Of a stretch of DNA of 64,000 bases, positions 33,241-60,727 are shown piece by piece. Source of the DNA: Owenia fusiformis (lineage: Eukaryota > Annelida > Polychaeta > Sabellida > Oweniidae); the NCBI GenBank assembly GCA_903813345.2, contig CAIIXF020000010.1:22765181-22829180 (forward strand). The letters run 5' to 3'. The notes under the pieces were generated by a model. The model was not told where the DNA came from. It worked only from the letters and a program-made list of their open reading frames with translations, and did no database searches. How positions within the stretch are numbered: position 1 is the stretch's first letter; every line of letters starts with the position of its first letter. The translations under genes and the position numbers were made by a program.

Positions 33241-33244
33241 TTAA

Positions 33245-36200
33245 GGGTCAATATAACCTACTAGATTTGTTTTGCTCATCGTATAGGAAAAGTAGTACTT
33301 AATACACTAGTTCGCTACTTTGTAGATGTATGGCACGTATATGTGTACATGTATTGGCAATTAATGTTTGGTGATAGCTAGTAGGAGTGTCAGGGACCGC
33401 TGACAGATTATTATTTTGAACCAAAAAATTGAATTATATTTTTGGCGGTCTCAGTAAATCAATGGGGTAATCAGGTCCTACGTGCTTTTTACAGGCCCAG
33501 AAATCAATGCTCGCTTATAAATGTAGCAAAATCTTTTTTCGTTCGTGGGATATTCTTTTCACCATATAACCGAACGGGAAGTTTTTGAATAGGACTACAT
33601 GATCTGAATGGATGTGAGGATTCGATGGGCTGGGATTTGAGAAATTATGATTTGAACTTTGCCAATTTTACATGTATTCCAATGGGTGAAAAAGTAAGTT
33701 GCTTTCTACCTAATATCAACCACATTTATTAGTGAATTTCGAGAAATATGTCGAATTTAGCCATATTTCGCATATATTTCTATGGAACCATTTAAAGTTT
33801 TGCAAATTAACCCCTAAAATTCTGGAGACGACGATCTAAATTTTGCTGAGTCAGCAATTTTCGTTTTTTTCATTGAAAACAGTACTTTTCAGCCTAAATT
33901 GCTACATTTCTGCTCTCTTATCAAGTAATTTGATGCAGTTCTTGCCAAATTAAAGGAAACACACCCCAAACGTTCCACAGTGTGCGAAGTTCCAACATTT
34001 TGACCCTTTAAACCCACGAAAGACCCAATTTTAAAGGGACGTATTCAGTAAACCTGCACAAAAGACAATGCTACTTGAACTAGCCATCAGAAGTTCATGA
34101 AAAACGAAAAATCAATGATATTCAGTTTAGTAAAGTAGCAAATAGTCCTACTTATGAGAGAATATAAATCACTTAAGCAATTTGTACAACTTTAAACAGC
34201 TGTTTTAAGTAGATTAGTATCGTTATGGGCAAAAATCCCCCAAAATAGCCCAAAATTTGTCCAAAAATTCAAAATTTTCATGCTCAAGGCTGAATTTTTT
34301 TGCCTATTTTGCTACATTTATCAGTGCAGTGACAAGAAGTCTTGTGGATAGCGCAACTTTTCCTGAACGTTTCTCTAATAAGATATTTTAATGACAAAAT
34401 AACTACATTTAGTCTGAAATAAATTGTCACAAAATATAATGACCCCAGGGGTCAAGAGAACCCTATAAAATCAAAAGTGCTGAGGGGATTTGAGCAAAAA
34501 TGTACATATCACTTCATAAAACCCCGAACTTTAAAATTCATATTGAATAAAATGCATATTCAGTCAACCATGACACTAATAGGGTCAATATAACCTACTT
34601 GAGATTTGTTTTGCTCATCGTATAGGAAAAGTAGTACTTAATACACTAGTTCGCTACTTTGTAGATGTATGGCACGTATATGTGTACATGTATTGGCAAT
34701 TAATGTTTGGTGATAGCTAGTAGGAGTGTCAGGGACCGCTGACAGATTATTATTTTGAACCAAAAAATTGAATTATATTTTTGGCGGTCTCAGTAAATCA
34801 ATGGGGTAATCAGGTCCTACGTGCTTTTTACAGGCCCAGAAATCAATGCTCGCTTATAAATGTAGCAAAATCTTTTTTCGTTCGTGGGATATTCTTTTCA
34901 CCATATAACCGAACGGGAAGTTTTTGAATAGGACTACATGATCTGAATGGATGTGAGGATTCGATGGGCTGGGATTTGAGAAATTATGATTTGAACTTTG
35001 CCAATTTTACATGTATTCCAATGGGTGAAAAAGTAAGTTGCTTTCTACCTAATATCAACCACATTTATTAGTGAATTTCGAGAAATATGTCGAATTTAGC
35101 CATATTTCGCATATATTTCTATGGAACCATTTAAAGTTTTGCAAATTAACCCCTAAAATTCTGGAGACGACGATCTAAATTTTGCTGAGTCAGCAATTTT
35201 CGTTTTTTCATTGAAAACAGTACTTTTCAGCCTAAATTGCTACATTTCTGCTCTCTTATCAAGTAATTTGATGCAGTTCTTGCCAAATTAAAGGAAACAC
35301 ACCCCAAACGTTCCACAGTGTGCGAAGTTCCAACATTTTGACCCTTTAAACCCACGAAAGACCCAATTTTAAAGGGACGTATTCAGTAAACCTGCACAAA
35401 AGACAATGCTACTTGAACTAGCCATCAGAAGTTCATGAAAAACGAAAAATCAATGATATTCAGTTTAGTAAAGTAGCAAATAGTCCTACTTATGAGAGAA
35501 TATAAATCACTTAAGCAATTTGTACAACTTTAAACAGCTGTTTTAAGTAGATTAGTATCGTTATGGGCAAAAATCCCCCAAAATAGCCCAAAATTTGTCC
35601 AAAAATTCAAAATTTTCATGCTCAAGGCTGAATTTTTTTGCCTATTTTGCTACATTTATCAGTGCAGTGACAAGAAGTCTTGTGGATAGCGCAACTTTTC
35701 CTGAACGTTTCTCTAATAAGATATTTTAATGACAAAATAACTACATTTAGTCTGAAATAAATTGTCACAAAATATAATGACCCCAGGGGTCAAGAGAACC
35801 CTATAAAATCAAAAGTGCTGAGGGGATTTGAGCAAAAATGTACATATCACTTCATAAAACCCCGAACTTTAAAATTCATATTGAATAAAATGCATATTCA
35901 GTCAACCATGACACTAATAGGGTCAATATAACCTACTTGAGATTTGTTTTGCTCATCGTATAGGAAAAGTAGTACTTAATACACTAGTTCGCTACTTTGT
36001 AGATGTATGGCACGTATATGTGTACATGTATTGGCAATTAATGTTTGGTGATAGCTAGTAGGAGTGTCAGGGACCGCTGACAGATTATTATTTTGAACCA
36101 AAAAATTGAATTATATTTTTGGCGGTCTCAGTAAATCAATGGGGTAATCAGGTCCTACGTGCTTTTTACAGGCCCAGAAATCAATGCTCGCTTATAAATG

Positions 36201-39200
36201 TAGCAAAATCTTTTTTCGTTCGTGGGATATTCTTTTCACCATATAACCGAACGGGAAGTTTTTGAATAGGACTACATGATCTGAATGGATGTGAGGATTC
36301 GATGGGCTGGGATTTGAGAAATTATGATTTGAACTTTGCCAATTTTACATGTATTCCAATGGGTGAAAAAGTAAGTTGCTTTCTACCTAATATCAACCAC
36401 ATTTATTAGTGAATTTCGAGAAATATGTCGAATTTAGCCATATTTCGCATATATTTCTATGGAACCATTTAAAGTTTTGCAAATTAACCCCTAAAATTCT
36501 GGAGACGACGATCTAAATTTTGCTGAGTCAGCAATTTTCGTTTTTTCATTGAAAACAGTACTTTTCAGCCTAAATTGCTACATTTCTGCTCTCTTATCAA
36601 GTAATTTGATGCAGTTCTTGCCAAATTAAAGGAAACACACCCCAAACGTTCCACAGTGTGCGAAGTTCCAACATTTTGACCCTTTAAACCCACGAAAGAC
36701 CCAATTTTAAAGGGACGTATTCAGTAAACCTGCACAAAAGACAATGCTACTTGAACTAGCCATCAGAAGTTCATGAAAAACGAAAAATCAATGATATTCA
36801 GTTTAGTAAAGTAGCAAATAGTCCTACTTATGAGAGAATATAAATCACTTAAGCAATTTGTACAACTTTAAACAGCTGTTTTAAGTAGATTAGTATCGTT
36901 ATGGGCAAAAATCCCCCAAAATAGCCCAAAATTTGTCCAAAAATTCAAAATTTTCATGCTCAAGGCTGAATTTTTTTGCCTATTTTGCTACATTTATCAG
37001 TGCAGTGACAAGAAGTCTTGTGGATAGCGCAACTTTTCCTGAACGTTTCTCTAATAAGATATTTTAATGACAAAATAACTACATTTAGTCTGAAATAAAT
37101 TGTCACAAAATATAATGACCCCAGGGGTCAAGAGAACCCTATAAAATCAAAAGTGCTGAGGGGATTTGAGCAAAAATGTACATATCACTTCATAAAACCC
37201 CGAACTTTAAAATTCATATTGAATAAAATGCATATTCAGTCAACCATGACACTAATAGGGTCAATATAACCTACTTGAGATTTGTTTTGCTCATCGTATA
37301 GGAAAAGTAGTACTTAATACACTAGTTCGCTACTTTGTAGATGTATGGCACGTATATGTGTACATGTATTGGCAATTAATGTTTGGTGATAGCTAGTAGG
37401 AGTGTCAGGGACCGCTGACAGATTATTATTTTGAACCAAAAAATTGAATTATATTTTTGGCGGTCTCAGTAAATCAATGGGGTAATCAGGTCCTACGTGC
37501 TTTTTACAGGCCCAGAAATCAATGCTCGCTTATAAATGTAGCAAAATCTTTTTTCGTTCGTGGGATATTCTTTTCACCATATAACCGAACGGGAAGTTTT
37601 TGAATAGGACTACATGATCTGAATGGATGTGAGGATTCGATGGGCTGGGATTTGAGAAATTATGATTTGAACTTTGCCAATTTTACATGTATTCCAATGG
37701 GTGAAAAAGTAAGTTGCTTTCTACCTAATATCAACCACATTTATTAGTGAATTTCGAGAAATATGTCGAATTTAGCCATATTTCGCATATATTTCTATGG
37801 AACCATTTAAAGTTTTGCAAATTAACCCCTAAAATTCTGGAGACGACGATCTAAATTTTGCTGAGTCAGCAATTTTCGTTTTTTCATTGAAAACAGTACT
37901 TTTCAGCCTAAATTGCTACATTTCTGCTCTCTTATCAAGTAATTTGATGCAGTTCTTGCCAAATTAAAGGAAACACACCCCAAACGTTCCACAGTGTGCG
38001 AAGTTCCAACATTTTGACCCTTTAAACCCACGAAAGACCCAATTTTAAAGGGACGTATTCAGTAAACCTGCACAAAAGACAATGCTACTTGAACTAGCCA
38101 TCAGAAGTTCATGAAAAACGAAAAATCAATGATATTCAGTTTAGTAAAGTAGCAAATAGTCCTACTTATGAGAGAATATAAATCACTTAAGCAATTTGTA
38201 CAACTTTAAACAGCTGTTTTAAGTAGATTAGTATCGTTATGGGCAAAAATCCCCCAAAATAGCCCAAAATTTGTCCAAAAATTCAAAATTTTCATGCTCA
38301 AGGCTGAATTTTTTTGCCTATTTTGCTACATTTATCAGTGCAGTGACAAGAAGTCTTGTGGATAGCGCAACTTTTCCTGAACGTTTCTCTAATAAGATAT
38401 TTTAATGACAAAATAACTACATTTAGTCTGAAATAAATTGTCACAAAATATAATGACCCCAGGGGTCAAGAGAACCCTATAAAATCAAAAGTGCTGAGGG
38501 GATTTGAGCAAAAATGTACATATCACTTCATAAAACCCCGAACTTTAAAATTCATATTGAATAAAATGCATATTCAGTCAACCATGACACTAATAGGGTC
38601 AATATAACCTACTTGAGATTTGTTTTGCTCATCGTATAGGAAAAGTAGTACTTAATACACTAGTTCGCTACTTTGTAGATGTATGGCACGTATATGTGTA
38701 CATGTATTGGCAATTAATGTTTGGTGATAGCTAGTAGGAGTGTCAGGGACCGCTGACAGATTATTATTTTGAACCAAAAAATTGAATTATATTTTTGGCG
38801 GTCTCAGTAAATCAATGGGGTAATCAGGTCCTACGTGCTTTTTACAGGCCCAGAAATCAATGCTCGCTTATAAATGTAGCAAAATCTTTTTTCGTTCGTG
38901 GGATATTCTTTTCACCATATAACCGAACGGGAAGTTTTTGAATAGGACTACATGATCTGAATGGATGTGAGGATTCGATGGGCTGGGATTTGAGAAATTA
39001 TGATTTGAACTTTGCCAATTTTACATGTATTCCAATGGGTGAAAAAGTAAGTTGCTTTCTACCTAATATCAACCACATTTATTAGTGAATTTCGAGAAAT
39101 ATGTCGAATTTAGCCATATTTCGCATATATTTCTATGGAACCATTTAAAGTTTTGCAAATTAACCCCTAAAATTCTGGAGACGACGATCTAAATTTTGCT

Positions 39201-42200
39201 GAGTCAGCAATTTTCGTTTTTTCATTGAAAACAGTACTTTTCAGCCTAAATTGCTACATTTCTGCTCTCTTATCAAGTAATTTGATGCAGTTCTTGCCAA
39301 ATTAAAGGAAACACACCCCAAACGTTCCACAGTGTGCGAAGTTCCAACATTTTGACCCTTTAAACCCACGAAAGACCCAATTTTAAAGGGACGTATTCAG
39401 TAAACCTGCACAAAAGACAATGCTACTTGAACTAGCCATCAGAAGTTCATGAAAAACGAAAAATCAATGATATTCAGTTTAGTAAAGTAGCAAATAGTCC
39501 TACTTATGAGAGAATATAAATCACTTAAGCAATTTGTACAACTTTAAACAGCTGTTTTAAGTAGATTAGTATCGTTATGGGCAAAAATCCCCCAAAATAG
39601 CCCAAAATTTGTCCAAAAATTCAAAATTTTCATGCTCAAGGCTGAATTTTTTTGCCTATTTTGCTACATTTATCAGTGCAGTGACAAGAAGTCTTGTGGA
39701 TAGCGCAACTTTTCCTGAACGTTTCTCTAATAAGATATTTTAATGACAAAATAACTACATTTAGTCTGAAATAAATTGTCACAAAATATAATGACCCCAG
39801 GGGTCAAGAGAACCCTATAAAATCAAAAGTGCTGAGGGGATTTGAGCAAAAATGTACATATCACTTCATAAAACCCCGAACTTTAAAATTCATATTGAAT
39901 AAAATGCATATTCAGTCAACCATGACACTAATAGGGTCAATATAACCTACTTGAGATTTGTTTTGCTCATCGTATAGGAAAAGTAGTACTTAATACACTA
40001 GTTCGCTACTTTGTAGATGTATGGCACGTATATGTGTACATGTATTGGCAATTAATGTTTGGTGATAGCTAGTAGGAGTGTCAGGGACCGCTGACAGATT
40101 ATTATTTTGAACCAAAAAATTGAATTATATTTTTGGCGGTCTCAGTAAATCAATGGGGTAATCAGGTCCTACGTGCTTTTTACAGGCCCAGAAATCAATG
40201 CTCGCTTATAAATGTAGCAAAATCTTTTTTCGTTCGTGGGATATTCTTTTCACCATATAACCGAACGGGAAGTTTTTGAATAGGACTACATGATCTGAAT
40301 GGATGTGAGGATTCGATGGGCTGGGATTTGAGAAATTATGATTTGAACTTTGCCAATTTTACATGTATTCCAATGGGTGAAAAAGTAAGTTGCTTTCTAC
40401 CTAATATCAACCACATTTATTAGTGAATTTCGAGAAATATGTCGAATTTAGCCATATTTCGCATATATTTCTATGGAACCATTTAAAGTTTTGCAAATTA
40501 ACCCCTAAAATTCTGGAGACGACGATCTAAATTTTGCTGAGTCAGCAATTTTCGTTTTTTTCATTGAAAACAGTACTTTTCAGCCTAAATTGCTACATTT
40601 CTGCTCTCTTATCAAGTAATTTGATGCAGTTCTTGCCAAATTAAAGGAAACACACCCCAAACGTTCCACAGTGTGCGAAGTTCCAACATTTTGACCCTTT
40701 AAACCCACGAAAGACCCAATTTTAAAGGGACGTATTCAGTAAACCTGCACAAAAGACAATGCTACTTGAACTAGCCATCAGAAGTTCATGAAAAACGAAA
40801 AATCAATGATATTCAGTTTAGTAAAGTAGCAAATAGTCCTACTTATGAGAGAATATAAATCACTTAAGCAATTTGTACAACTTTAAACAGCTGTTTTAAG
40901 TAGATTAGTATCGTTATGGGCAAAAATCCCCCAAAATAGCCCAAAATTTGTCCAAAAATTCAAAATTTTCATGCTCAAGGCTGAATTTTTTTGCCTATTT
41001 TGCTACATTTATCAGTGCAGTGACAAGAAGTCTTGTGGATAGCGCAACTTTTCCTGAACGTTTCTCTAATAAGATATTTTAATGACAAAATAACTACATT
41101 TAGTCTGAAATAAATTGTCACAAAATATAATGACCCCAGGGGTCAAGAGAACCCTATAAAATCAAAAGTGCTGAGGGGATTTGAGCAAAAATGTACATAT
41201 CACTTCATAAAACCCCGAACTTTAAAATTCATATTGAATAAAATGCATATTCAGTCAACCATGACACTAATAGGGTCAATATAACCTACTTGAGATTTGT
41301 TTTGCTCATCGTATAGGAAAAGTAGTACTTAATACACTAGTTCGCTACTTTGTAGATGTATGGCACGTATATGTGTACATGTATTGGCAATTAATGTTTG
41401 GTGATAGCTAGTAGGAGTGTCAGGGACCGCTGACAGATTATTATTTTGAACCAAAAAATTGAATTATATTTTTGGCGGTCTCAGTAAATCAATGGGGTAA
41501 TCAGGTCCTACGTGCTTTTTACAGGCCCAGAAATCAATGCTCGCTTATAAATGTAGCAAAATCTTTTTTCGTTCGTGGGATATTCTTTTCACCATATAAC
41601 CGAACGGGAAGTTTTTGAATAGGACTACATGATCTGAATGGATGTGAGGATTCGATGGGCTGGGATTTGAGAAATTATGATTTGAACTTTGCCAATTTTA
41701 CATGTATTCCAATGGGTGAAAAAGTAAGTTGCTTTCTACCTAATATCAACCACATTTATTAGTGAATTTCGAGAAATATGTCGAATTTAGCCATATTTCG
41801 CATATATTTCTATGGAACCATTTAAAGTTTTGCAAATTAACCCCTAAAATTCTGGAGACGACGATCTAAATTTTGCTGAGTCAGCAATTTTCGTTTTTTC
41901 ATTGAAAACAGTACTTTTCAGCCTAAATTGCTACATTTCTGCTCTCTTATCAAGTAATTTGATGCAGTTCTTGCCAAATTAAAGGAAACACACCCCAAAC
42001 GTTCCACAGTGTGCGAAGTTCCAACATTTTGACCCTTTAAACCCACGAAAGACCCAATTTTAAAGGGACGTATTCAGTAAACCTGCACAAAAGACAATGC
42101 TACTTGAACTAGCCATCAGAAGTTCATGAAAAACGAAAAATCAATGATATTCAGTTTAGTAAAGTAGCAAATAGTCCTACTTATGAGAGAATATAAATCA

Positions 42201-45200
42201 CTTAAGCAATTTGTACAACTTTAAACAGCTGTTTTAAGTAGATTAGTATCGTTATGGGCAAAAATCCCCCAAAATAGCCCAAAATTTGTCCAAAAATTCA
42301 AAATTTTCATGCTCAAGGCTGAATTTTTTTGCCTATTTTGCTACATTTATCAGTGCAGTGACAAGAAGTCTTGTGGATAGCGCAACTTTTCCTGAACGTT
42401 TCTCTAATAAGATATTTTAATGACAAAATAACTACATTTAGTCTGAAATAAATTGTCACAAAATATAATGACCCCAGGGGTCAAGAGAACCCTATAAAAT
42501 CAAAAGTGCTGAGGGGATTTGAGCAAAAATGTACATATCACTTCATAAAACCCCGAACTTTAAAATTCATATTGAATAAAATGCATATTCAGTCAACCAT
42601 GACACTAATAGGGTCAATATAACCTACTTGAGATTTGTTTTGCTCATCGTATAGGAAAAGTAGTACTTAATACACTAGTTCGCTACTTTGTAGATGTATG
42701 GCACGTATATGTGTACATGTATTGGCAATTAATGTTTGGTGATAGCTAGTAGGAGTGTCAGGGACCGCTGACAGATTATTATTTTGAACCAAAAAATTGA
42801 ATTATATTTTTGGCGGTCTCAGTAAATCAATGGGGTAATCAGGTCCTACGTGCTTTTTACAGGCCCAGAAATCAATGCTCGCTTATAAATGTAGCAAAAT
42901 CTTTTTTCGTTCGTGGGATATTCTTTTCACCATATAACCGAACGGGAAGTTTTTGAATAGGACTACATGATCTGAATGGATGTGAGGATTCGATGGGCTG
43001 GGATTTGAGAAATTATGATTTGAACTTTGCCAATTTTACATGTATTCCAATGGGTGAAAAAGTAAGTTGCTTTCTACCTAATATCAACCACATTTATTAG
43101 TGAATTTCGAGAAATATGTCGAATTTAGCCATATTTCGCATATATTTCTATGGAACCATTTAAAGTTTTGCAAATTAACCCCTAAAATTCTGGAGACGAC
43201 GATCTAAATTTTGCTGAGTCAGCAATTTTCGTTTTTTCATTGAAAACAGTACTTTTCAGCCTAAATTGCTACATTTCTGCTCTCTTATCAAGTAATTTGA
43301 TGCAGTTCTTGCCAAATTAAAGGAAACACACCCCAAACGTTCCACAGTGTGCGAAGTTCCAACATTTTGACCCTTTAAACCCACGAAAGACCCAATTTTA
43401 AAGGGACGTATTCAGTAAACCTGCACAAAAGACAATGCTACTTGAACTAGCCATCAGAAGTTCATGAAAAACGAAAAATCAATGATATTCAGTTTAGTAA
43501 AGTAGCAAATAGTCCTACTTATGAGAGAATATAAATCACTTAAGCAATTTGTACAACTTTAAACAGCTGTTTTAAGTAGATTAGTATCGTTATGGGCAAA
43601 AATCCCCCAAAATAGCCCAAAATTTGTCCAAAAATTCAAAATTTTCATGCTCAAGGCTGAATTTTTTTGCCTATTTTGCTACATTTATCAGTGCAGTGAC
43701 AAGAAGTCTTGTGGATAGCGCAACTTTTCCTGAACGTTTCTCTAATAAGATATTTTAATGACAAAATAACTACATTTAGTCTGAAATAAATTGTCACAAA
43801 ATATAATGACCCCAGGGGTCAAGAGAACCCTATAAAATCAAAAGTGCTGAGGGGATTTGAGCAAAAATGTACATATCACTTCATAAAACCCCGAACTTTA
43901 AAATTCATATTGAATAAAATGCATATTCAGTCAACCATGACACTAATAGGGTCAATATAACCTACTTGAGATTTGTTTTGCTCATCGTATAGGAAAAGTA
44001 GTACTTAATACACTAGTTCGCTACTTTGTAGATGTATGGCACGTATATGTGTACATGTATTGGCAATTAATGTTTGGTGATAGCTAGTAGGAGTGTCAGG
44101 GACCGCTGACAGATTATTATTTTGAACCAAAAAATTGAATTATATTTTTGGCGGTCTCAGTAAATCAATGGGGTAATCAGGTCCTACGTGCTTTTTACAG
44201 GCCCAGAAATCAATGCTCGCTTATAAATGTAGCAAAATCTTTTTTCGTTCGTGGGATATTCTTTTCACCATATAACCGAACGGGAAGTTTTTGAATAGGA
44301 CTACATGATCTGAATGGATGTGAGGATTCGATGGGCTGGGATTTGAGAAATTATGATTTGAACTTTGCCAATTTTACATGTATTCCAATGGGTGAAAAAG
44401 TAAGTTGCTTTCTACCTAATATCAACCACATTTATTAGTGAATTTCGAGAAATATGTCGAATTTAGCCATATTTCGCATATATTTCTATGGAACCATTTA
44501 AAGTTTTGCAAATTAACCCCTAAAATTCTGGAGACGACGATCTAAATTTTGCTGAGTCAGCAATTTTCGTTTTTTCATTGAAAACAGTACTTTTCAGCCT
44601 AAATTGCTACATTTCTGCTCTCTTATCAAGTAATTTGATGCAGTTCTTGCCAAATTAAAGGAAACACACCCCAAACGTTCCACAGTGTGCGAAGTTCCAA
44701 CATTTTGACCCTTTAAACCCACGAAAGACCCAATTTTAAAGGGACGTATTCAGTAAACCTGCACAAAAGACAATGCTACTTGAACTAGCCATCAGAAGTT
44801 CATGAAAAACGAAAAATCAATGATATTCAGTTTAGTAAAGTAGCAAATAGTCCTACTTATGAGAGAATATAAATCACTTAAGCAATTTGTACAACTTTAA
44901 ACAGCTGTTTTAAGTAGATTAGTATCGTTATGGGCAAAAATCCCCCAAAATAGCCCAAAATTTGTCCAAAAATTCAAAATTTTCATGCTCAAGGCTGAAT
45001 TTTTTTGCCTATTTTGCTACATTTATCAGTGCAGTGACAAGAAGTCTTGTGGATAGCGCAACTTTTCCTGAACGTTTCTCTAATAAGATATTTTAATGAC
45101 AAAATAACTACATTTAGTCTGAAATAAATTGTCACAAAATATAATGACCCCAGGGGTCAAGAGAACCCTATAAAATCAAAAGTGCTGAGGGGATTTGAGC

Positions 45201-47095
45201 AAAAATGTACATATCACTTCATAAAACCCCGAACTTTAAAATTCATATTGAATAAAATGCATATTCAGTCAACCATGACACTAATAGGGTCAATATAACC
45301 TACTTGAGATTTGTTTTGCTCATCGTATAGGAAAAGTAGTACTTAATACACTAGTTCGCTACTTTGTAGATGTATGGCACGTATATGTGTACATGTATTG
45401 GCAATTAATGTTTGGTGATAGCTAGTAGGAGTGTCAGGGACCGCTGACAGATTATTATTTTGAACCAAAAAATTGAATTATATTTTTGGCGGTCTCAGTA
45501 AATCAATGGGGTAATCAGGTCCTACGTGCTTTTTACAGGCCCAGAAATCAATGCTCGCTTATAAATGTAGCAAAATCTTTTTTCGTTCGTGGGATATTCT
45601 TTTCACCATATAACCGAACGGGAAGTTTTTGAATAGGACTACATGATCTGAATGGATGTGAGGATTCGATGGGCTGGGATTTGAGAAATTATGATTTGAA
45701 CTTTGCCAATTTTACATGTATTCCAATGGGTGAAAAAGTAAGTTGCTTTCTACCTAATATCAACCACATTTATTAGTGAATTTCGAGAAATATGTCGAAT
45801 TTAGCCATATTTCGCATATATTTCTATGGAACCATTTAAAGTTTTGCAAATTAACCCCTAAAATTCTGGAGACGACGATCTAAATTTTGCTGAGTCAGCA
45901 ATTTTCGTTTTTTCATTGAAAACAGTACTTTTCAGCCTAAATTGCTACATTTCTGCTCTCTTATCAAGTAATTTGATGCAGTTCTTGCCAAATTAAAGGA
46001 AACACACCCCAAACGTTCCACAGTGTGCGAAGTTCCAACATTTTGACCCTTTAAACCCACGAAAGACCCAATTTTAAAGGGACGTATTCAGTAAACCTGC
46101 ACAAAAGACAATGCTACTTGAACTAGCCATCAGAAGTTCATGAAAAACGAAAAATCAATGATATTCAGTTTAGTAAAGTAGCAAATAGTCCTACTTATGA
46201 GAGAATATAAATCACTTAAGCAATTTGTACAACTTTAAACAGCTGTTTTAAGTAGATTAGTATCGTTATGGGCAAAAATCCCCCAAAATAGCCCAAAATT
46301 TGTCCAAAAATTCAAAATTTTCATGCTCAAGGCTGAATTTTTTTGCCTATTTTGCTACATTTATCAGTGCAGTGACAAGAAGTCTTGTGGATAGCGCAAC
46401 TTTTCCTGAACGTTTCTCTAATAAGATATTTTAATGACAAAATAACTACATTTAGTCTGAAATAAATTGTCACAAAATATAATGACCCCAGGGGTCAAGA
46501 GAACCCTATAAAATCAAAAGTGCTGAGGGGATTTGAGCAAAAATGTACATATCACTTCATAAAACCCCGAACTTTAAAATTCATATTGAATAAAATGCAT
46601 ATTCAGTCAACCATGACACTAATAGGGTCAATATAACCTACTTGAGATTTGTTTTGCTCATCGTATAGGAAAAGTAGTACTTAATACACTAGTTCGCTAC
46701 TTTGTAGATGTATGGCACGTATATGTGTACATGTATTGGCAATTAATGTTTGGTGATAGCTAGTAGGAGTGTCAGGGACCGCTGACAGATTATTATTTTG
46801 AACCAAAAAATTGAATTATATTTTTGGCGGTCTCAGTAAATCAATGGGGTAATCAGGTCCTACGTGCTTTTTACAGGCCCAGAAATCAATGCTCGCTTAT
46901 AAATGTAGCAAAATCTTTTTTCGTTCGTGGGATATTCTTTTCACCATATAACCGAACGGGAAGTTTTTGAATAGGACTACATGATCTGAATGGATGTGAG
47001 GATTCGATGGGCTGGGATTTGAGAAATTATGATTTGAACTTTGCCAATTTTACATGTATTCCAATGGGTGAAAAAGTAAGTTGCTTTCTACCTAA
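33245..47095. repeat. 13.85-kb array F1: ten 1338-bp units plus a 471-bp partial unit
   Basis: Units start with GGGTCAATATAACCTAC at 33245, 34582, 35920, 37258, 38596, 39934, 41273, 42611, 43949, 45287 and 46625. Lengths are 1337-1339 bp. The differences I noticed are a two-base difference near the start of unit 1 and one extra T in units 1 and 6. The last copy stops after 471 bp at CTACCTAA, giving (A-B)x10-A with A 471 bp and B 867 bp. TAA borders both ends (33242-33244, 47093-47095). No reading frame of note on either strand. Confidence 0.97.
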
Positions 47096-48197: not shown

Positions 48198-48496
48198 GTA
48201 GGCTATACATCGAATGTTCATTCAACTTAGAATTTATCATCCTTGACCTCTTATACATGTATGGATTAAATTAAATAATCCTATCAAACCAAATTGATAC
48301 ACAGTTAGAATCTAAATAGGCTATTGCAGATTTAGATTCTTTTACTAAACCACAATGACAAAGAATATATTCTTCACATCAAAATAAAATTCTGTATAGA
48401 TGAATGGAGGATATCTTATGATTTATGAGTGATGTGATGTTCATCTATCATGTCTATGAATGGATGCCCATGTCAATATTCATAAAATGATAAGTT
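48198..48496. other. TM2D2 intron 2, start
   Basis: AT-rich; nothing recognised. Confidence 0.4.
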
Positions 48497-49103
48497 TAAA
48501 GGAACATTCCTGGCTAAACCTTTTCTATCCTGATGTGATAGCTATAATCATATATATACTTTCCATATTTAGCAAAACATGGAGAAATGTTTTAATATAA
48601 ATATAGTCAATATTGATCATTTAAAAATGTAGTGCTCATTTCCAGTAAGCTGCCATCTTTTAAGATTTTACTCAGGAAGTGATGTCATCGACTCTCAACT
48701 TTCATGACCTTGCATATAACAGTATAGGAAAATAGCACAATATCACTTCTAGACGAGTGATCCTTACTTTATGCACAAAAATATGTTCAGAGCTTGTCAG
48801 CTTAGAATAAAAGAAGAGACTTTTAGAAGGATTAAATCATAGACAAAATTGAAAAAGAATATTCACCTAGTTTTGTAATTCTTAATAGCTCCTTATAGTG
48901 TTATATGCAAAGTTGAGAGTCGATGACATCACTTCCTGAGTGAAATATTAAAAGATGGCAGCCTACTGGAATTCGGCACTACATTTTCAAGTGATCAATA
49001 TTGACCATATCAAAACATTTTTCCCTGTTTTGCTAAATATGGAAAGTATATATATGGTTATAGCTACCATATTAGGAGAGAAATGGTCTGGCCAGGAATG
49101 TTC
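48497..49103. mobile_element. Foldback element copy B
   Basis: Same family as 21875-22453. GGAACATTCCTGGC at the left end is matched by GCCAGGAATGTTC at the right. AGTGATGTCATCGACTCTCA and its inverse TGAGAGTCGATGACATCACT lie inside the arms. Arms about 250 bp, centre about 120 bp. No coding capacity. Confidence 0.85.
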
Positions 49104-49339
49104 ATACCTCTTATTAGAATGACTGATTGGCTATTGTAAATGTCAGCCTTGGTTTGAGTAGAGTAGCAAACCACTGTTAACTATCCTGTATTTGATGATT
49201 CAGTGACAATTTGCGAAAATATGATATCTTTCCACTGGTTGCAAAATATTCTATTATTGTTTTGACACAATATTCCTTGTATTCATTATTCTATGGAATA
49301 ATATACAAATATTGAATTCTGTGGAGTTGAATATCTGTA

Positions 49340-49840: not shown

Positions 49841-50354
49841 CTTCCTATTTCATTCAGTTGGGTGGATAGAGCGTGCTCTAATGATGTTCTCATGTGAGAA
49901 ACATATTTTTCCAACAAAGTTCAAAATAGAGATTTTGAAACGTAAGGAGAATGAAGCTATAAAAGCCTATTAACCTCTTGACTACCTGGAGTGACGAGAT
50001 TTCTCGTCACATCAGAAATGAAATGAAATAATATAGTCTGGCTTTGTTTCATACAAAAATCAGATATGGATATTGAAATACAAATGTAATGAATTTATGG
50101 AGAGATTTTCTGAATATCATGGGATAAAAAGCTTATTTACTGGTCGGTATTCAATATGGGTTTATTCCTTGTGACAGTATAATATTTTGCAGGAATTCAT
50201 GCCAAAATATAATGAAATCTATTTTGTTCAATGGGACCAATTTATCAAGCTATAGTGGTACTTTCCTACAGAAAATATTTCCCACATGGCAAATTCACTT
50301 CAAATTTTTGCCTAAAAATGAAAAAAGAGAAAATGGTTGAATTTAATGAAAACA
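49841..50354. other. TM2D2 intron 2, no feature
   Basis: No exon or repeat recognised. Confidence 0.35.
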
Positions 50355-50356
50355 TA

Positions 50357-50651
50357 CTGTGGATACACTTAATTTGGCTCCCGTTTTAATTTGACGGATT
50401 GGTGGATTCAGAAAATCCGCCAAATTAAAAATCCGTCAAATTTTAGTTTGGAATTTTTGTCCAATGCACTTCAGAAATTAAACTCCAGGGGCCCCTTTTC
50501 CTGTCAATATGTCATCAATTCTAGATTATTCCAAAAGTTCATCTACAAAAGTTAAACTTCTGTCCTGATTCCGCCAAATTAAATTGCCACCAATATTTGA
50601 AATTGAGCAAACCAGTCAAATTAAGTAGCGCCGAAATAAGTGTATCTACAG
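50357..50651. mobile_element. Tc1/mariner-type MITE with TA duplication
   Basis: CTGTGGATACACTTAATTTGG at the left end pairs with the complement of the right end, CTGTAGATACACTTATTTCGG (20 or so bases each). TA borders both sides (50355-50356, 50652-50653). Internal GACGGATTGG / AATCCGTCAAATT repeats. 295 bp, noncoding. Confidence 0.75.
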
Positions 50652-50699
50652 TAAGTAGGAATATATTATGGGATGCAATGAATAACTTATTTACTTGTT

Positions 50700-50960
50700 G
50701 TGGATGAACATGGAAATGTTCTTTGGGGAATTATACAGTACGTCTAATGGCACGCCTTACACCATGCCATGTCGTCGGCATGCCGCCCGAATTTCGTGGT
50801 CAACTCGAACGCTTTTCGTGGTCACCGCGGGCGCGTCACGAGTGCGCTTCAAGCTCATCGCGGGGTGATTTCATATGTACAGCGGAGTTGGTTTATTCGC
50901 GTAGCTTTCGCTCACCATTCGTTGCACGGGCGCCACATTATAATTTCATGTAGTTAAGTG
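50700..50960. other. GC- and CpG-rich island of unknown origin
   Basis: The segment around 50745-50935 is far richer in CG dinucleotides than anything around it (CGTCGGCATGCCGCCCGAAT, CACCGCGGGCGCGTCACGAG). Open frames on the + strand are overlapping and without recognisable similarity. No splice context. It may be a fragment of an inserted element with its own composition. Confidence 0.4.
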
Positions 50961-51427
50961 TTTTAGATTCCATTTACTTACCCGATGGGCGAATGGTAAA
51001 TCAGGTTTAAAACCATTATTATCTTTCAACGTTAAATTACACGATCTTTCATTTCCAGAGGATATTTAGCTCTCTTCCTCATCCCGATAAACATCTGATG
51101 AATGTAGATGTTTGCTCCCCATGTACATCACATTATATTATACAATTTATAAGACTCTAAATGAGTCGCTTTAGACGAAAACAAATAATTTAACAAAGTG
51201 TTTTTCAAAATGCTTTTTGAATCATCTGTTCCCATTTAACCACAGTACAGTATAAATGCACATATATTTATTGGATCCTGAATTTAATCAATGCGATGAA
51301 TTTACATGAAATTAACAGATACTGCATGCGAACAATAACAACTATTTACCAATGAAATTGTTTTCATCAAAAAAGGCCACGCGTTAGCGTATCTACATCG
51401 TGAATTCTGAAAATTTCGTCCTGAAAT
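50961..51427. other. TM2D2 intron 2, flank of the LTR element
   Basis: AT-rich; AAAT at 51424-51427 is the left target duplication of the LTR element. Nothing else seen. Confidence 0.45.
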
Positions 51428-52712
51428 TGTGGCGAAGTTGAGTCTCTCTTCTTTTACAAAACATGAAAACAAATAAAGTTTAAAATACTAATTTATTAAA
51501 GAAAAGTTAAAGTCCAAAATATCATTTCAATCGGCTACTTACAGTTTTTGGTTTGTCCCGAGTTCACGCAACGAGGTTCTGAGGATTTCAGACAAAATTG
51601 CCCCTTTTATACCCAATTTTTTTATGTGGGCCCCACCAAAATAAGGGGTCTTATCCAATGAAATCCCCTAAAAACCCATTAACAAAAATTGGCCGGAAAG
51701 AAGTGTGAAAAATTATATGAAGATTAATTATCAACATGCCAGATTTCTGCCCACATTATTTTCTAAAAAGTTGAAAAGTTCCCATTTATTTCAGTTTTTG
51801 TTGAAACTTTTGAGACAGGTATGATTAATAACTGAATCCCAGAACCTCGGTTCAGACAATTCTCATGAACTTTTTACCTTACTCATTTAAACCATTAAGT
51901 CATTATCTCTTCAAAATACATGTTTTATAATATTTTAAACAATAAAAGTTAGCAAATTCCTTATACATATACATTACAATGTTTTTCATATATCAAAATG
52001 TATATTTCACCTACAAAATACTGATTTTTGGTCAATTTGTACATCATCACCCATCAATTTATCATATCCTATTGTTTTACCAAAATGACATCATATACCA
52101 ATATGTTTTTATGAATCTATGGAAGCTAGACAAAACATCATTAATTGAATATGATAGCTTCTTGGCTTCATTTAAAGTTATACTGTCACTCAATAGACTA
52201 GACTTCCCCCTTTCTTGGAACCACTTCTTGCCATTGGCTATGTGATTTACCTGTCAAATCTACCATCAGTCCTTACTATAAAACATGTTCAATTGAATGC
52301 AAGATATCTTTATCTAAGTTTAACTTTGTTATTCTGCAACATCCATAGATATTTAAGATTGTGTCATTGAGTTCAAGGTAAAATTGATAAATTACTAAAT
52401 TAATAACATTTTCCATTTTAGAAGCCTAAATTAATTTTACAAAAATTAAATGGAAGTGAACAATTTCTTCTTGTTTTACATTATGATGTCTTATTCGAAA
52501 GTTGTTTATATTCACATGCCAAGAAATGATGTATCTTCAATGTCTACAGTAAACAAAGCTTCCAGTTCCCAAAACATTCTGCCGTTATGATGATATCAGC
52601 ACAACGGAAGTATTTATCCTAAGATTTCTGTATTTGTAAGCAACATGTAGAGTATTCGAGATTATCATGACCTAAGTTTCAAAAATCCAATGAAAAATCA
52701 AACTTTGTCACA
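51428..52712 (-). repeat. 3' LTR (left copy), 1285 bp, uninterrupted
   Basis: Begins TGTGGCGAAGTTGAG and ends CTTTGTCACA on the + strand. It matches 57665-60727 with an offset of 6237 and preserves the empty site (single TAA at 52637-52639) of the array inserted in the other LTR. Confidence 0.9.
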
Positions 52713-53640
52713 TTCCTCCCACCTAACAAATTTGTTTGTCCTCAAACAATAAAAAGGATCTAAGAAAATTGCTAACATTTTGTTTCAGTGATTACATATT
52801 AATAGCTTAAGTGTACTTAGACATGCCTATTTACAATTTGAAACAAATTTCAATGTATTGTGTACATATTTTCATTTGTTATCGTTGTTAACAAGTTAAC
52901 TAGCCCAGTTTTTAATGTGGTTATAGTGGTTATAAGTTATATTATTGAGTATAATATTGAGTATGATATAATATATAAAATGCAGTATAATAAGTGTTCA
53001 AGTCTCATTCCAGTCATTGGTTTGGCTCATCCTTTTTGGCTTTCTCTTGTCCAGGCTTATGTCTTCTTAAAAATACATTTCCGAGACAAATGAAGTTTTT
53101 CGTGAATCTTTTCCTTTCTTAGCACATACATCCCCAGAATTAGAGCAATAACAATGAAGATTACTTGGAAAATTTCTATAATCCAGTGTTGTTCAAATTC
53201 AGCTAAATCAATGTCAGTATCAGATTCCCATTTTCCATCAAAGATAAGGGATCAAACTATGTCATCCATATCTCTGTTAAACTCACTAGCTTGGGACATG
53301 AACTCTGGCAGGGGTGGTAACTCTATGTCCTTTAAATCCTCTCCATTCTCTTTTGGCAACATCTGTTGATACTTGATGACGAATGGTGTTTGAACACTTA
53401 CATGTTCGATAAACTGGAATACATCAGAACTACAAAATGGAGCTATCAGTTCATTCCTATCATCATTCTACTTAGCTCAATAAAAGATTTATCATCGGAA
53501 GAGGCTGCTAAGTAATCCGGAACATTTGTAATCATTGAAGCTGAATTGTTGTTTGGTAGTAGAACAGAGAAAGTGTTAATCGTGTCATCACGTAAATAAA
53601 TCATAAAATCATTTTATGTCAACGTTCATTATTGCTTCCA
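52713..53640 (-). pseudogene. Interior 3' part of the LTR fossil, possible envelope-like tail
   Basis: Between the purine tract and the gag-like part, the minus strand has short protein-like stretches, one with a membrane-spanning-type hydrophobic run followed by basic residues at about 53090-53190. This could be an envelope-like C terminus, as in some Gypsy-type elements. The assignment is an inference from hydrophobicity and position only. Broken. Confidence 0.3.
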
Positions 53641-55205
53641 TAAATTGATCCAAAGCTAACTGACTCTGTACTTCACATGTTGTTTTTGGCCATGTTTTCT
53701 GACTAATTTCTTAAGGTCCTGCGCAAGTTCGGGAAGTGATTCCTTGTTTGTTTGTTTTTTTCTTACGATTCTTCAGCTGTGCTTTATACATTTGTAGCTG
53801 ATCTTCTGGTTCAAATCTATCTTGCAAGGTTGAACAAAGTTTCTCATAGTCACTTCTATCTGCTTCACTTAAGGGTATTGTCCCTCTTACTTTCAATATT
53901 GCCTCTTTGTAGGCTTCCCCAAAAATGTTGGTGTGTCTTCTTGGGTGCATCTTCCGGATCAGGTGACCGTCGTTCCTCCTTCCAAGGATATTGTTTAGCC
54001 TCCTTGAAGGCATCCCCTGTAGGTAACCATCGTTTCCTCAGGCCAAGAAACACAATTCGCCTTCTTGGTGGCGTCATCCACATCAAGTAACCGTCGTCCC
54101 CCTTCCAAGGATATTGTTTAGCCTCCTTGTAGGCATCCCCTGTAGGTAACGATCGTTTCCTCAGGCCAAGAAACACAATTCGCCTTGTTGGTGGCGTCAT
54201 CCACATCAGGTAACCGTCGTCCCCCTTTCAAGGATATTGTTTAGCCTCCTTGAAGGCGTGCCCTGTAGGTAACCGTCGTTTCCTCAGGCCAAGAATATTT
54301 GTGTGCCTTCTTGGTGGCATCCCCCCTAGGTAATTGTCCTTCCTCAGTCCAAGAATATTGGTGTGCCTTCTTGGTGGCATCCCCTGTAGGTAATTGTCGT
54401 TCCTCAGGCCAAGAATATTAGTGTGCCTTCTTGGTGGCATCTTCCGGATCAGATAATTGTGGTTCCTCAATCCAAGAATATTAGTGTGCCTTCTTGGTGG
54501 CATCCCCCATGGGTAATTGTCGTTCCTCAGTCCAAGAATATTAGTGTGCCTTCTTGGTGGCATCTTCCGGATCAGGTTGTTCCTCAGTCCAAGAATATTG
54601 GTGTGCCTTCTTGGTGGCATCTTTATTGAGCTCCAACTTTCAAGGGTATTATAGTTGCCCCCTCGTATGGCATCTTTAGTGGAAGGCCATTCCTGTTTGT
54701 AGGGAATTGGACGTCGCTTCCCCCATGGCGACAGAGTAGGTTCGAAAAGTGACTGCCTTCTTCTTTGGGAATGTTCCCATTTGAAGCACCTACTTCGGCT
54801 TTGGTCAATGATTGCTGTGGCGAGAGTACTTCCATATTAATCTGAAGCACTTGTAAATCTGAAGGGATGGATGTTACCAATCCTTCCGATATGACTTCCT
54901 GTAGCCTTGGTGTTTCGTTTTATACATCGTTGATAGGTTAATATGACTCGCTCTCTGGATCGAAATTCTTTGACTTCATCACATAAGCGGAAATTGACGT
55001 CGCTTTCCGTGGTGCGACACAAGTGACAGTATTTTTCTTGGAATTTCTCCCGAGAAAATAGATGTATGACTCGTATTGACGTGACTGCCAGCTTGTAAGG
55101 TTGTGAGTGCATGTGTGAACAACTGCAGGTCTTTGCTACCACAATCGAATATTTTGGCGCAATAGTAGTTGACTTTATGGAGCCCCCAGTCGAGACTCCC
55201 TGCAA
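53641..55205 (-). pseudogene. gag-like remnant with internal repeat expansion
   Basis: Around 53700-53880 the minus strand resembles the conserved central part of Gypsy/Mag-type gag (Tyr-x-x-Leu ... Arg-Phe ... Leu-x-x-Arg pattern). Upstream of it, 53900-54630 is largely tandem repeats: 60-bp units (about six copies, 54290-54630) and a ~124-bp duplication. The region is decayed, with several breaks. Confidence 0.5.
53990..54630. repeat. 60-bp and ~124-bp tandem repeats inside the gag-like region
   Basis: The repeated word GTGCCTTCTTGGTGGCATC recurs every ~60 bp from 54300 to 54625. A longer composite containing GAAACACAATTCGCCTT occurs twice at about 54020-54260. The 60-bp unit preserves reading frame on the minus strand. 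Confidence 0.85.
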
Positions 55206-55844
55206 TTGTCGCTAATTATACATAGATCATTGATGGTTTTCAGCATCTTTCATCTTAAGTCTGTCCTCCTCTCTGTCGTTGAGTTGTCTCAATATGTCTG
55301 CATATTGTCATCAAAGGATTGTTCTAAAGCATCAGCTCATTTCACCATATTTTAATCCAACTGTTTTTATCATAAAACGTTCCCATGTTGTTTTCACATA
55401 TCAATATCAGAGAATTCGGGACATCTTGTATCTTTCTATAGTCCTGTTGGTCTATCAAATCTTGATCAGGGATTTGATCTCAGGTTCAGTTATGCTCGGC
55501 GAATAACTTCAATGATCCACTTTGACTGAGTTGTTTAAGTCGACTTAAGTGAGAACTCCATTACACAATCTCGATTTGGCCAAAAACATGAACCTTTCAT
55601 GGTAATTTCCATGTGTTATTTTTTTTTAATGATTTTAATCAGTAGATGGCAAGTTGTTTATTGTCTAACAAAAATTACTGGATATCCGTAGTTAACAAAA
55701 AAAAGTGCCGTACTCTACATTTCCTAAATAGATGTGGCAACAGTATTTAAAGTTGCCTCGACTTCATCTTAATCTATTCAGTGTCAGAAATGTGATGTTA
55801 CAAATTATGAAAGTCATTGAACAAAGCATAAATTATTTATTTAC
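55206..55844. other. LTR element interior, no recognisable domain
   Basis: Nothing recognised. A stretch near 55656-55740 (GTCTAACAAAAATTACTGG...ACATTTCCT) is repeated at about 56313-56375, on the other side of the 139-codon frame. Confidence 0.4.
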
Positions 55845-56264
55845 TTAATATTCAGAGAACTTAAGATACTTTTTAAATAGTTCTGGAAGTGGTATTTCTG
55901 TTATGTCTTTTATCTGCACCAAATCTTGAATTTTTATGATGCAGGTGGCTTCTAGGGTTGATGGTACATCTTGAAATTCGAAAAATTCTGTGATGTTTTC
56001 GTATTTCTTTTGAAGTTTCGAAATTTTCTCAAAATTGTATCGAACAAACCCGTTTTTTACATATGAAATGTGACAATTCCTGAAAATGTGAAATTCACCC
56101 AGTTTAATATAGCCTGGCACTATGATTTGAGCATCTGACATTTGTTCATTGATAAGACGTCTATATGTTCTTAAAAGCAAATTAGATCGCTTAATAAGAC
56201 TGTATTGAAGACCAGTTATTGGAAGTGATCCCTGATTAGGGAAAATAAGGGTAATCCTTGGCAT
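55845..56264 (-). other. 139-codon open frame of unknown family in the LTR element leader
   Basis: A complete Met-to-stop frame on the minus strand between the primer site and the gag-like region. The predicted product is basic/aromatic-rich with no recognised motif. Direct repeats of ~80 bp flank it. It may be an extra element-encoded gene, a captured fragment, or chance. Confidence 0.3.
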
Positions 56265-57664
56265 TCTGAAATTTAATTACTTGCAGTGTACTTGTTATTA
56301 AACTGTAAATACAAGTCTAACAAAAATTACTGGCTATCTTTATTAAACTAAAGGTGTCATCATTTACATTTCCTCAAATTTCGCATAAATAAAATCGATT
56401 CGTAAATTTAAAGTGTTTTACAGTAGTGATACTTTCACAGTTTATATTTGAATGTGTTACGCCTTATCAACAATTAATTATTCCAGGGAGATGTTTCCCC
56501 AAAATGTCAAAACGGTTATCATAACATAACATAAACTAGTTCACGATTATCCCAAGTAAGTTGAATAGCTAGAACAGAAATGTATGCCTGTATAAAGCTG
56601 GTCATATCACAACATTTTAACAATGGAACAACATCAACAAACTGGATTAATACTGAAATGAATAAATTCAATACAGATAATATTAAATCAATTCTAAGAA
56701 AAACAATGCAAAACAAAACAACCAGAAATCATTTTATCAGGAGCTTTAAAAGTAAGTTTCAGATTTTCTTGGAATTCAAACCAAAATAAAAAGTTCAGTA
56801 CTGGTCAACATGTGATTTTGAGGGTAAGTAAAACATTCTTTTGAATTTACTGAAAACATACTTATTTTATCAGTCAAATGTGAATATGAATCATTAACAG
56901 CTCGGTCATGTTGTAGATCTACTAATAACTAAATCTAAGTCAAAATTCACCGACAAGAAAAACAGAAAATATACTTCATACTCCAGAATCAAAATATTGA
57001 GTTCTTTTCTTAACAAAAGTTGAATACATGGTCCCTCCTAAAACAAACAGATATATAATTTGAATTAAAGAAATGCTTTACTAAACATGTTCAACAAATC
57101 TTTCTAACAATCATATAAGCTTATTCTATATTATTTACCTTAAGTTTGTTTTAAAATCAAAATGGTCATCAAGAATATAACTTTTGAAATATTTAAAAAA
57201 AATTCTCAATTTCTTTATTTAAGTCACTTATTTGAAGAACTTGGTCAAATCATTTCATTATGCTTTTCATTCTTGTAATAAACCAACCAAATATCTGACA
57301 GTTATTTTAACATATGAAGTGTTTTACCGTAGTCTTGCTGTATCCTTTAAATGTTTATTCCTGCTGCCAAGTAAAGATATCCAAATGTTTACGCATATTG
57401 AGAGTATTAATCTCAAAGTCACAGCCTTCCATACAACTTCCTTCCGATAAACATTTTGTATTAAGAAACTGACGAATACTTATCTAAATAATAACAACTG
57501 ACCAAATTGCAAAATATTTAATTTAAATATAACTCAATCCAATACGTTTGCCATCCATCGATTATTTTCTAAATAATTTTCAAATGTTTTCATGTTTATG
57601 CAATGAAATATTGAGACAATACAAAGGCGGAACCTAGTCAATTTATCCCACCGCTGCCACCAAT
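56265..57664 (-). other. LTR element leader with primer-binding site at its right end
   Basis: AT-rich leader without recognised coding sequence. The primer-binding site complementary to tRNA-Leu lies at about 57645-57662, two bases inside the 5' LTR. The 18-base match to a Leu tRNA acceptor end is exact against the common eukaryotic type. Confidence 0.6.
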
Positions 57665-60600
57665 TGTGGCGAAGTTGAGTCTCTCTTCTTTTACAAAACA
57701 TGAAAACAAATAAAGTTTAAAATACTAATTTATTAAAGAAAAGTTAAAGTCCAAAATATCATTTCAATCGGCTACTTACAGTTTTTGGTTTGTCCCGAGT
57801 TCACGCAACGAGGTTCTGAGGATTTCAGACAAAATTGCCCCTTTTATACCCAATTTTTTTATGTGGGCCCCACCAAAATAAGGGGTCTTATCCAATGAAA
57901 TCCCCTAAAAACCCATTAACAAAAATTGGCCGGAAAGAAGTGTGAAAAATTATATGAAGATTAATTATCAACATGCCAGATTTCTGCCCACATTATTTTC
58001 TAAAAAGTTGAAAAGTTCCCATTTATTTCAGTTTTTGTTGAAACTTTTGAGACAGGTATGATTAATAACTGAATCCCAGAACCTCGGTTCAGACAATTCT
58101 CATGAACTTTTTACCTTACTCATTTAAACCATTAAGTCATTATCTCTTCAAAATACATGTTTTATAATATTTTAAACAATAAAAGTTAGCAAATTCCTTA
58201 TACATATACATTACAATGTTTTTCATATATCAAAATGTATATTTCACCTACAAAATACTGATTTTTGGTCAATTTGTACATCATCACCCATCAATTTATC
58301 ATATCCTATTGTTTTACCAAAATGACATCATATACCAATATGTTTTTATGAATCTATGGAAGCTAGACAAAACATCATTAATTGAATATGATAGCTTCTT
58401 GGCTTCATTTAAAGTTATACTGTCACTCAATAGACTAGACTTCCCCCTTTCTTGGAACCACTTCTTGCCATTGGCTATGTGATTTACCTGTCAAATCTAC
58501 CATCAGTCCTTACTATAAAACATGTTCAATTGAATGCAAGATATCTTTATCTAAGTTTAACTTTGTTATTCTGCAACATCCATAGATATTTAAGATTGTG
58601 TCATTGAGTTCAAGGTAAAATTGATAAATTACTAAATTAATAACATTTTCCATTTTAGAAGCCTAAATTAATTTTACAAAAATTAAATGGAAGTGAACAA
58701 TTTCTTCTTGTTTTACATTATGATGTCTTATTCGAAAGTTGTTTATATTCACATGCCAAGAAATGATGTATCTTCAATGTCTACAGTAAACAAAGCTTCC
58801 AGTTCCCAAAACATTCTGCCGTTATGATGATATCAGCACAACGGAAGTATTTATCCTAAGATTTCTGTATTTGTAAGGGTCAAGATTGCAGTAAAAAATC
58901 CCATTGACGACCATTATAACGTTTCATTTCATAATATATTCATGGGCACAGATCTAGCTCAGCGAAACAGTGCCCAGTGTTCATTGGAGTCTTGTCTAGC
59001 TTGCCGTTACAAAATAAGCATACGGTGACCACACCGTTTTTGAGATAACTGAATCTGGAGAGAGCTACCACCGTAAAGCTACCTGTTTCAGAAAATTATT
59101 CTGCTCTACATAGTCTCAAAAATCACTCCGCCATCTATAAAAATTCTGTTTCTAACCAAACTTGTAAATGTTTCCTGATAGATTAGTACTTACCCTATCG
59201 AGAATAAACCTTGATTCATTTATCAAACACTAGATGGCGCTGCGACGGGACAGAAAAGGAGAAAGAGCTTTTTATACAGAAAACCAAATAACCAACGGTA
59301 ACCGCTAGTATCCCTACTCCGGACTATATTCTAATAGTGACACGGTTGAATGATTTTGTGCCAGAAATCTTGTTTTTCTTAAACATAAGAGTGTTTCAAG
59401 ACTTTTTGTGCAATTTAAGCCCAATCGCATCAATAGAAGAGCTTTTATAGCTGCTTTGTTAACCCCGGGGTCATTTATTTTAGGGCCATGCAGTTTTATA
59501 CCTAACTGACCATTTTTGCAATAGAAATACTGCTACTCGCTATGGCTTAACAAAAATTCACAATATTTAGCATGTCAAAACGTTTATTCGCACTTCCATA
59601 ATGTTTATTGCCAAAATCACTGAACCATGAAACAGAAAAATGGTCAAATCTAGTCATTTTTGATCAGAGATTACCCCAAATTAGCCATTATTTAGTGATT
59701 AATTTTCAGTAAATGAGCTTCTATATTAAATTATCATATCAGTTTTGCATAGCAATGTTCTTGTTTTAATTACATGCATGTTAGTAACTGTTTTCAGCCA
59801 TATTTAGTCAGTCTATTGGGTTAAATGTGTCAAATTTGTCATATATTTTCAAGAAAAATTCAGACACAAAGGAAAAAGCTGTATTACATGCTATGATAAT
59901 GGCTAAATCCTTAAATTCGGTAATAATTTGATAAAAGCCTGTCAACAACCTCTTAAAACCAGCACTAACAGCCCTATTGTGCTATCCTGTAACAAAATAC
60001 AGGCCAAAAATGGCCAAAACCTGTGATTTTTAGGTAAAAAATGAAAAATGCTGAATCAGCGAAAATCTAAATTGCTAATTCTTCAGATAATTTGATTTTT
60101 CTTAGAGATGCAAGGTACACATTGCTAAGAAAGTGTAATTTTTACAAAAATAACGCTATTTCCCACCCTAGTACTGTCACCACCCTGTTGCTAATAGGGT
60201 CAAGATTGCAGTAAAAAATCCCATTGACGACCATTATAACGTTTCATTTCATAATATATTCATGGGCACAGATCTAGCTCAGCGAAACAGTGCCCAGTGT
60301 TCATTGGAGTCTTGTCTAGCTTGCCGTTACAAAATAAGCATACGGTGACCACACCGTTTTTGAGATAACTGAATCTGGAGAGAGCTACCACCGTAAAGCT
60401 ACCTGTTTCAGAAAATTATTCTGCTCTACATAGTCTCAAAAATCACTCCGCCATCTATAAAAATTCTGTTTCTAACCAAACTTGTAAATGTTTCCTGATA
60501 GATTAGTACTTACCCTATCGAGAATAAACCTTGATTCATTTATCAAACACTAGATGGCGCTGCGACGGGACAGAAAAGGAGAAAGAGCTTTTTATACAGA

Positions 60601-60727
60601 AAACCAAATAACCAACGGTAACCGCTAGTATCCCTACTCCGGACTATATTCTAAGCAACATGTAGAGTATTCGAGATTATCATGACCTAAGTTTCAAAAA
60701 TCCAATGAAAAATCAAACTTTGTCACA
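57665..60727 (-). repeat. 5' LTR (right copy), split by the F2 array
   Basis: Identical to 51428-52712 as far as I could compare, but interrupted at 58877-60651 by the 1320-bp-unit tandem element. LTR sequence resumes with GCAACATGTAGAGTATTCG at 60655. Confidence 0.9.
58877..60651. mobile_element. Element F2: A-B-A tandem unit (1320 bp) inserted with TAA duplication
   Basis: Starts GGGTCAAGATTGCAG at 58877; the second copy starts at 60197 (period 1320) and stops after 455 bp. The layout is A (455 bp) - B (~862 bp) - A. TAA flanks both sides (58874-58876, 60652-60654), while the other LTR has a single TAA at the same place, showing a clean insertion. No reading frame, primer site, purine tract or clear TIR seen. 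Its junctions resemble those of array F1 read on the other strand. Confidence 0.85.

Follow-up and report, generated by a model that had tools for sequence, protein, structure and literature searches.

A 64,000-nucleotide stretch of the genome of the annelid Owenia fusiformis (contig CAIIXF020000010.1; hereafter, the window) contains two noncoding elements, F1 and F2, in which a spacer (B) lies between long direct repeats (A). The locus raises the question of what kind of mobile element is built in this way and how it comes to form tandem arrays. On the basis of the evidence presented below, F1 and F2 most likely represent composite DNA transposons of the KolobokP type, each a nonautonomous family (probability, roughly 0.87). 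Following the terms used for KolobokP, we refer to the A repeats as long terminal direct repeats (LTDRs) and to the B spacers as INT. F2 documents, to the base, the arrival of a complete monomer. F1 is an array of ten units whose outermost repeat differs from the others, which bears on growth after insertion. Spacer sites common to these two otherwise diverged families are candidate recognition sequences.

Insertion of F2 into a retrotransposon and structure of F1

F2 (positions 58877-60651) consists of two identical 455-bp A copies around a B of 865 bp, giving a total length of 1775 bp; its A-B-A plan and its unit of 1320 bp agree with the preliminary description of this DNA. It splits one of the two long terminal repeats (LTRs) of a retrotransposon (51428-60727; TG...CA ends; 1285-bp LTRs; AAAT on both sides). 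The features of F2, including its target site duplications (TSDs), and of the host LTRs are as follows.

51428..52712, no strand assigned: host retrotransposon LTR, uninterrupted, 1285 bp, with the empty site (TAA) at 52637-52639
57665..60727, no strand assigned: sister LTR, split by F2
58874..58876, + strand: left TSD of F2, TAA
58877..59331, + strand: left LTDR of F2, 455 bp
59332..60196, + strand: INT of F2, 865 bp; TAATA at both tips
60197..60651, + strand: right LTDR of F2, identical to the left LTDR
60652..60654, + strand: right TSD of F2, TAA

When F2 and one TAA are taken out, the sister LTRs match at 1285 of 1285 bases; therefore, all 1775 bp of F2 entered together and gave rise to a duplication of 3 bp. 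The A-B-A monomer was inserted in one step, duplicating TAA, and at a later time than the host retrotransposon. The identity of the LTRs suggests that the host retrotransposon is young, and since they are still identical, the F2 insertion is probably recent as well. This exact empty site bears out two earlier proposals, i.e., that the elements are mobile (here for F2) and that the direct terminal repeats of ~0.46 kb belong to the transposing unit. The host retrotransposon itself seems, by eye, to be on the minus strand; its interior carries a 60-123 bp tandem repeat at 53937-54621, and none of four open reading frames (ORFs) in the interior reached a Pfam cut-off.

F1 (33245-47092) follows the plan (A-B)10-A, with 11 A copies and 10 B copies at a unit spacing of 1338 or 1339 bp. 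The previously proposed 1338-bp unit with an extra A at the end thus stands, and tandem arrays of the same plan as F2 do occur. Its main features are listed below.

33242..33244, + strand: left flank of F1, TAA, presumed TSD
33245..47092, - strand (i.e., the orientation homologous to F2): F1 array, (LTDR-INT)10-LTDR, 13,848 bp
33245..33710, - strand: first (outermost) LTDR of F1, 466 bp; 2 bp missing at 19-20 bp from the tip, present in the other ten
45755..46624, - strand: last INT of F1, 870 bp; TAATA at both tips on the + strand
46625..47092, - strand: last LTDR of F1, 468 bp
47093..47095, + strand: right flank of F1, TAA, presumed TSD; alternatively, the start of an INT (TAATA)

Ten of the 11 A copies are identical, the first being 2 bp shorter. 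The B copies are identical in 8 of 10 cases, and units 1 and 6 carry a run of seven T in place of six. The ends of F1 are GG...CC (GG...TC in F2), and with an LTDR of 468 bp, a monomer of this family would measure 1806 bp (i.e., 468+870+468). The left flank ends with TTAA and the right flank begins with TAAG; no empty site for F1 was found within the window, and a TAA duplication is presumed as the simple reading of these flanks. A TAA was indeed found on each side of both elements on the + strand, while the TWA duplication given in the preliminary description arises from reading F1 in the homologous orientation. The elements also appear to be noncoding, as described: the longest stop-to-stop frames comprise 57 amino acids in F1 and 72 amino acids in F2, and the six longer frames that were scanned had no Pfam match.

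Spacers related in opposite orientation

The reverse complement of F1 had been described as homologous to F2, and for the spacers, pairwise alignment agreed. The reverse complement of the F1 B aligned with the F2 B at a local score of 554 (shuffle maximum, 393; 0 of 100 shuffles as high), while no relationship was detected in the same orientation (13 of 100 shuffles as high). The identity of the two INTs was 50.5% over 818 ungapped columns, compared with a mean of 44.1% and a maximum of 47.9% among 40 shuffles. The best 20-base windows (17, 16, and 15 matches) were within the reach of a single shuffle (maximum, 17; 40 shuffles), and no block was significant alone. On these alignment scores, the F1 and F2 spacers are related, in opposite orientation.

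The spacers have three landmarks in common: a tip (TATTAGTGTCATGGTTGA / TAATAGTGACACGGTTGA) and a pair of palindromes in corresponding positions. In addition, B begins and ends with the same 5 bp (i.e., TAATA on the + strand) in both F1 and F2. The palindromes are located as follows.

45887..45901, no strand assigned: F1 palindrome 2, TTGCTGACTCAGCAA (read in reverse complement); distance to the INT tip, 132 bp
46483..46497, no strand assigned: F1 palindrome 1, TGACCCCTGGGGTCA (reverse-complement reading), from INT base 128
59462..59471, no strand assigned: F2 palindrome 1, ACCCCGGGGT, from INT base 131
60050..60060, no strand assigned: F2 palindrome 2, GCTGAATCAGC; distance to the other INT tip, 136 bp

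One shared palindrome reads ACCCC(T)GGGGT and lies ~130 bp from one INT tip; the other reads GCTGA(C/A)TCAGC and lies ~135 bp from the other tip. The background rate of palindromes with an arm length of at least 5 and a G+C content of at least 50% was 10 in 25.4 kb (i.e., 0.34 per 870 bp), and none had arms of at least 6. Two palindromes in F2 and one in F1 passed these thresholds, with the second of F1 (47% G+C) falling just under a G+C cut that was set after the palindromes had been seen. As shared sites, the paired palindromes are only suggestive.

Classification among composite DNA transposons

KolobokP was described by Kojima and Bao (2022; PMC9587614) as a transposon group that is common in bivalves and, according to the parts of that report drawn upon here, has been reported from animals only (7 phyla). 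In this group, an INT lies between two LTDRs of ~450 or 660 bp. The elements have RR...YY ends and TSDs of 3-4 or 4-5 bp, and the LTDR has its own perfect or imperfect terminal inverted repeats (TIRs; 11-18 bp). The nonautonomous families of the Pacific oyster measure 1738-3261 bp, solo LTDRs are common, and (LTDR-INT)n-LTDR multimers occur, usually flanked by TSDs. The INT of KolobokP-1_MeMe has TATA at both tips. In the authors' view, the long terminal direct repeats set KolobokP apart from every other DNA transposon, and the upkeep of the composite form is an open question (PMC9587614). The earlier statement that no named superfamily has such a design must accordingly be withdrawn, as KolobokP is defined by it.

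F1 and F2 resemble this group in several respects. Their LTDRs (468 and 455 bp, respectively) are close to ~450 bp, their ends (GG...CC and GG...TC) fit RR...YY, and TAA fits a TSD of 3-4 bp (proven by the empty site for F2; present at both flanks for F1). The F2 monomer (1775 bp) and the would-be F1 monomer (1806 bp) both fall inside the range of 1738-3261 bp. F1 is an (LTDR-INT)n-LTDR multimer (n = 10) with TAA at both outer flanks, and the INT tips are repeated (TAATA in F1 and F2; TATA in KolobokP-1_MeMe). Furthermore, the two ends of the F1 LTDR match as an imperfect inverted repeat (12/19; p = 0.003, or 0.008 among random pairs both starting with G). F1 and F2 are probably new nonautonomous members of an already known kind. 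Empty sites have already been reported for other KolobokP copies inside repeats, and the parts of the report that we cite make no mention of the two palindromes in the spacer (PMC9587614). As far as those parts extend, the empty site in the sister LTR and the palindrome pair of the spacers are features of the F1 and F2 copies in particular.

Several observations weigh against this classification or against the evidence for it. The assignment is based on architecture. No enzyme coding was recognized in F1 or F2 or among the 12 ORFs of the window scanned with Pfam, and, at E 0.01, the remainder of the window yielded no LTDR or INT matches, including solo LTDRs. Between the A repeats of F1 and F2, no relationship could be detected (71 of 100 shuffles as high in reverse complement; 26 of 100 forward). 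The homology of F1 and F2 claimed earlier therefore does not extend to A, and the matches listed for the inside of A are not evidence by themselves, because shuffles score as high. Among the six pairs of F1 and F2 left and right ends compared, the inverted repeat of the F2 ends is weak (9/17; p = 0.05, or 0.09 among random G-starting pairs), and the TIRs, imperfect in F1 and weak in F2, may depart from those of KolobokP; the description of both elements as lacking TIRs is doubtful. The right end of F1 in the homologous orientation shares 9 of its first 11 bases with the left end of F2 (p = 0.0007), a match between opposite ends and in one of the six pairs, while the homologous ends are unalike (5/13, p = 0.40; 3/11, p = 0.75). 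Apart from F1-left/F1-right, F1-right/F2-left, and the marginal F2 pair, the remaining three of the six pairs showed no match. The right-hand TAA of F1 could be a stub of the B spacer instead of a TSD, an ambiguity that arises because B begins with TAATA. The T-run pattern of F1 could be a sequencing or assembly error and constitutes weak evidence, because homopolymers are prone to such errors. Finally, palindromes with arms of at least 5 are ordinary when any composition is allowed (3.5 per 870 bp).

The elements could instead belong to a separate superfamily (e.g., one driven by PIF/Harbinger), with two direct A copies resembling miniature inverted-repeat transposable elements that flank B and are co-mobile with a TWA duplication. 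TWA is the target duplication of PIF/Harbinger, the proven TAA duplication of F2 fits it, and the ends begin with GG. However, the B regions are related in both families, and B is therefore part of the element and not a chance passenger. Since KolobokP covers the same features as well as the LTDR length, the multimers, and the INT tips, we consider such an origin unlikely. Convergence of a new group of transposons on the LTDR-INT-LTDR plan would be consistent with the unalike A repeats of F1 and F2, elements whose resemblance to named KolobokP elements is one of architecture. Against this, F1 and F2 agree closely with KolobokP in the length of the repeats, the end sequences, the TSD, the size of the monomer, the formation of multimers, and the tips of INT. 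Moreover, the unalike A repeats are no surprise, because the transposases of different KolobokP families may share as little as 21% identity (PMC9587614), and convergence appears very improbable. Least credible is a terminal-repeat retrotransposon in miniature (TRIM) or another LTR-type retroelement in tandem copies: biv-TRIM of bivalves (Satovic et al. 2019; PMC6934838), as far as that report is used here, is likewise noncoding, with direct terminal repeats and, in a clam genome, TDR-I-TDR tandem arrays (i.e., terminal direct repeats around an interior) that share repeats, but it has repeats of 202-218 bp and an interior of 77-80 bp with a 7-bp polypurine tract and is classed as LTR-derived, whereas F1 and F2 have GG...TC/CC instead of TG...CA ends, a TSD of 3 bp, and no primer-binding site or polypurine tract beside A in a reading of the sequence by eye. 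An LTR-type element was thus rejected on the basis of the end sequences and repeat sizes.

Other candidates were also rejected. Hammerhead-ribozyme elements comprise retrozymes and some Penelope elements; the window contained 0 Rfam matches at the gathering score. A tRNA-linked origin was discarded, with ARAGORN (bacterial settings) reporting 0 genes. Replitrons share direct terminal repeats and short TSDs, but their description, in the part of the review cited here (PMC10741241), does not fit F1 or F2. The INT tip motif TWATAGTGWCAYGGTTGA was found in 5 stretches of viral contigs and 23 stretches of prokaryote contigs; the chance expectation in the prokaryote contigs was ~60 (a rough estimate assuming even base composition). 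A loose blastn comparison of F1 and F2 parts with all 28 of these stretches yielded identities of 55-69% and a best E value of 2e-4 among the ten best rows. These matches were judged to reflect AT-rich composition, and the stretches were rejected as relatives of F1 and F2. The F1 unit, the sole query used against phage records, had no match there.

Proposed array growth and other features of the window

For KolobokP-type elements such as we take F1 and F2 to be, the transposase would be supplied in trans from another genomic locus and act on the outer ends of the LTDRs, and the whole LTDR-INT-LTDR unit would be inserted with a 3-bp duplication, as seen for F2. Once inserted, a copy would gain or lose LTDR-INT units by recombination between its LTDRs, and F1, with its ten units, may be a copy that has grown in this manner. 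In the sections of their report considered here, Kojima and Bao proposed unequal exchange between LTDRs as one growth route and the induction of expansion by an element-encoded His-Me finger endonuclease (PMC9587614). The sequence of F1 favors growth by unequal exchange between LTDRs after insertion, because the outermost left LTDR alone differs and the 7-T run recurs in units 1 and 6. The sharing of this run by units 1 and 6 hints at a five-unit block duplication.

The INT palindromes (128-136 bp inside the tips) and the conserved INT tip might be binding or cutting sites of trans-acting KolobokP proteins (e.g., the His-Me endonuclease). Cutting there would trigger LTDR exchange and array growth, and INT would then be a retained functional part and not a deletion remnant. 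We regard this proposal as tentative and, on balance, doubtful.

The remainder of the window contains further features. An exon of an interferon regulatory factor (IRF) gene was identified at 6477-6818 (PF00605; E = 7.2e-11), and the ORFs at 15318-17285 may represent further IRF exons. IRF genes being animal genes, this exon indicates an animal host, in keeping with the reported restriction of KolobokP to animals. A search with joined exons yielded 397 candidates with shared words, none of which reached E 0.001. Related tandem arrays with units of 366-393 bp lie in opposite orientation at 969-2181 and 3814-5414, and an array with a 54-bp unit (12288-14576) has long open stretches on both strands. 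Inverted copies with 92% identity and internal repeats of 112-120 bp are present at 24144-24756 and 25200-25798. Copies of a fold-back repeat that are 76-86% alike occur at 21875-22454, 48497-49103, and 3239-3362, and another fold-back is located at 31683-32077.

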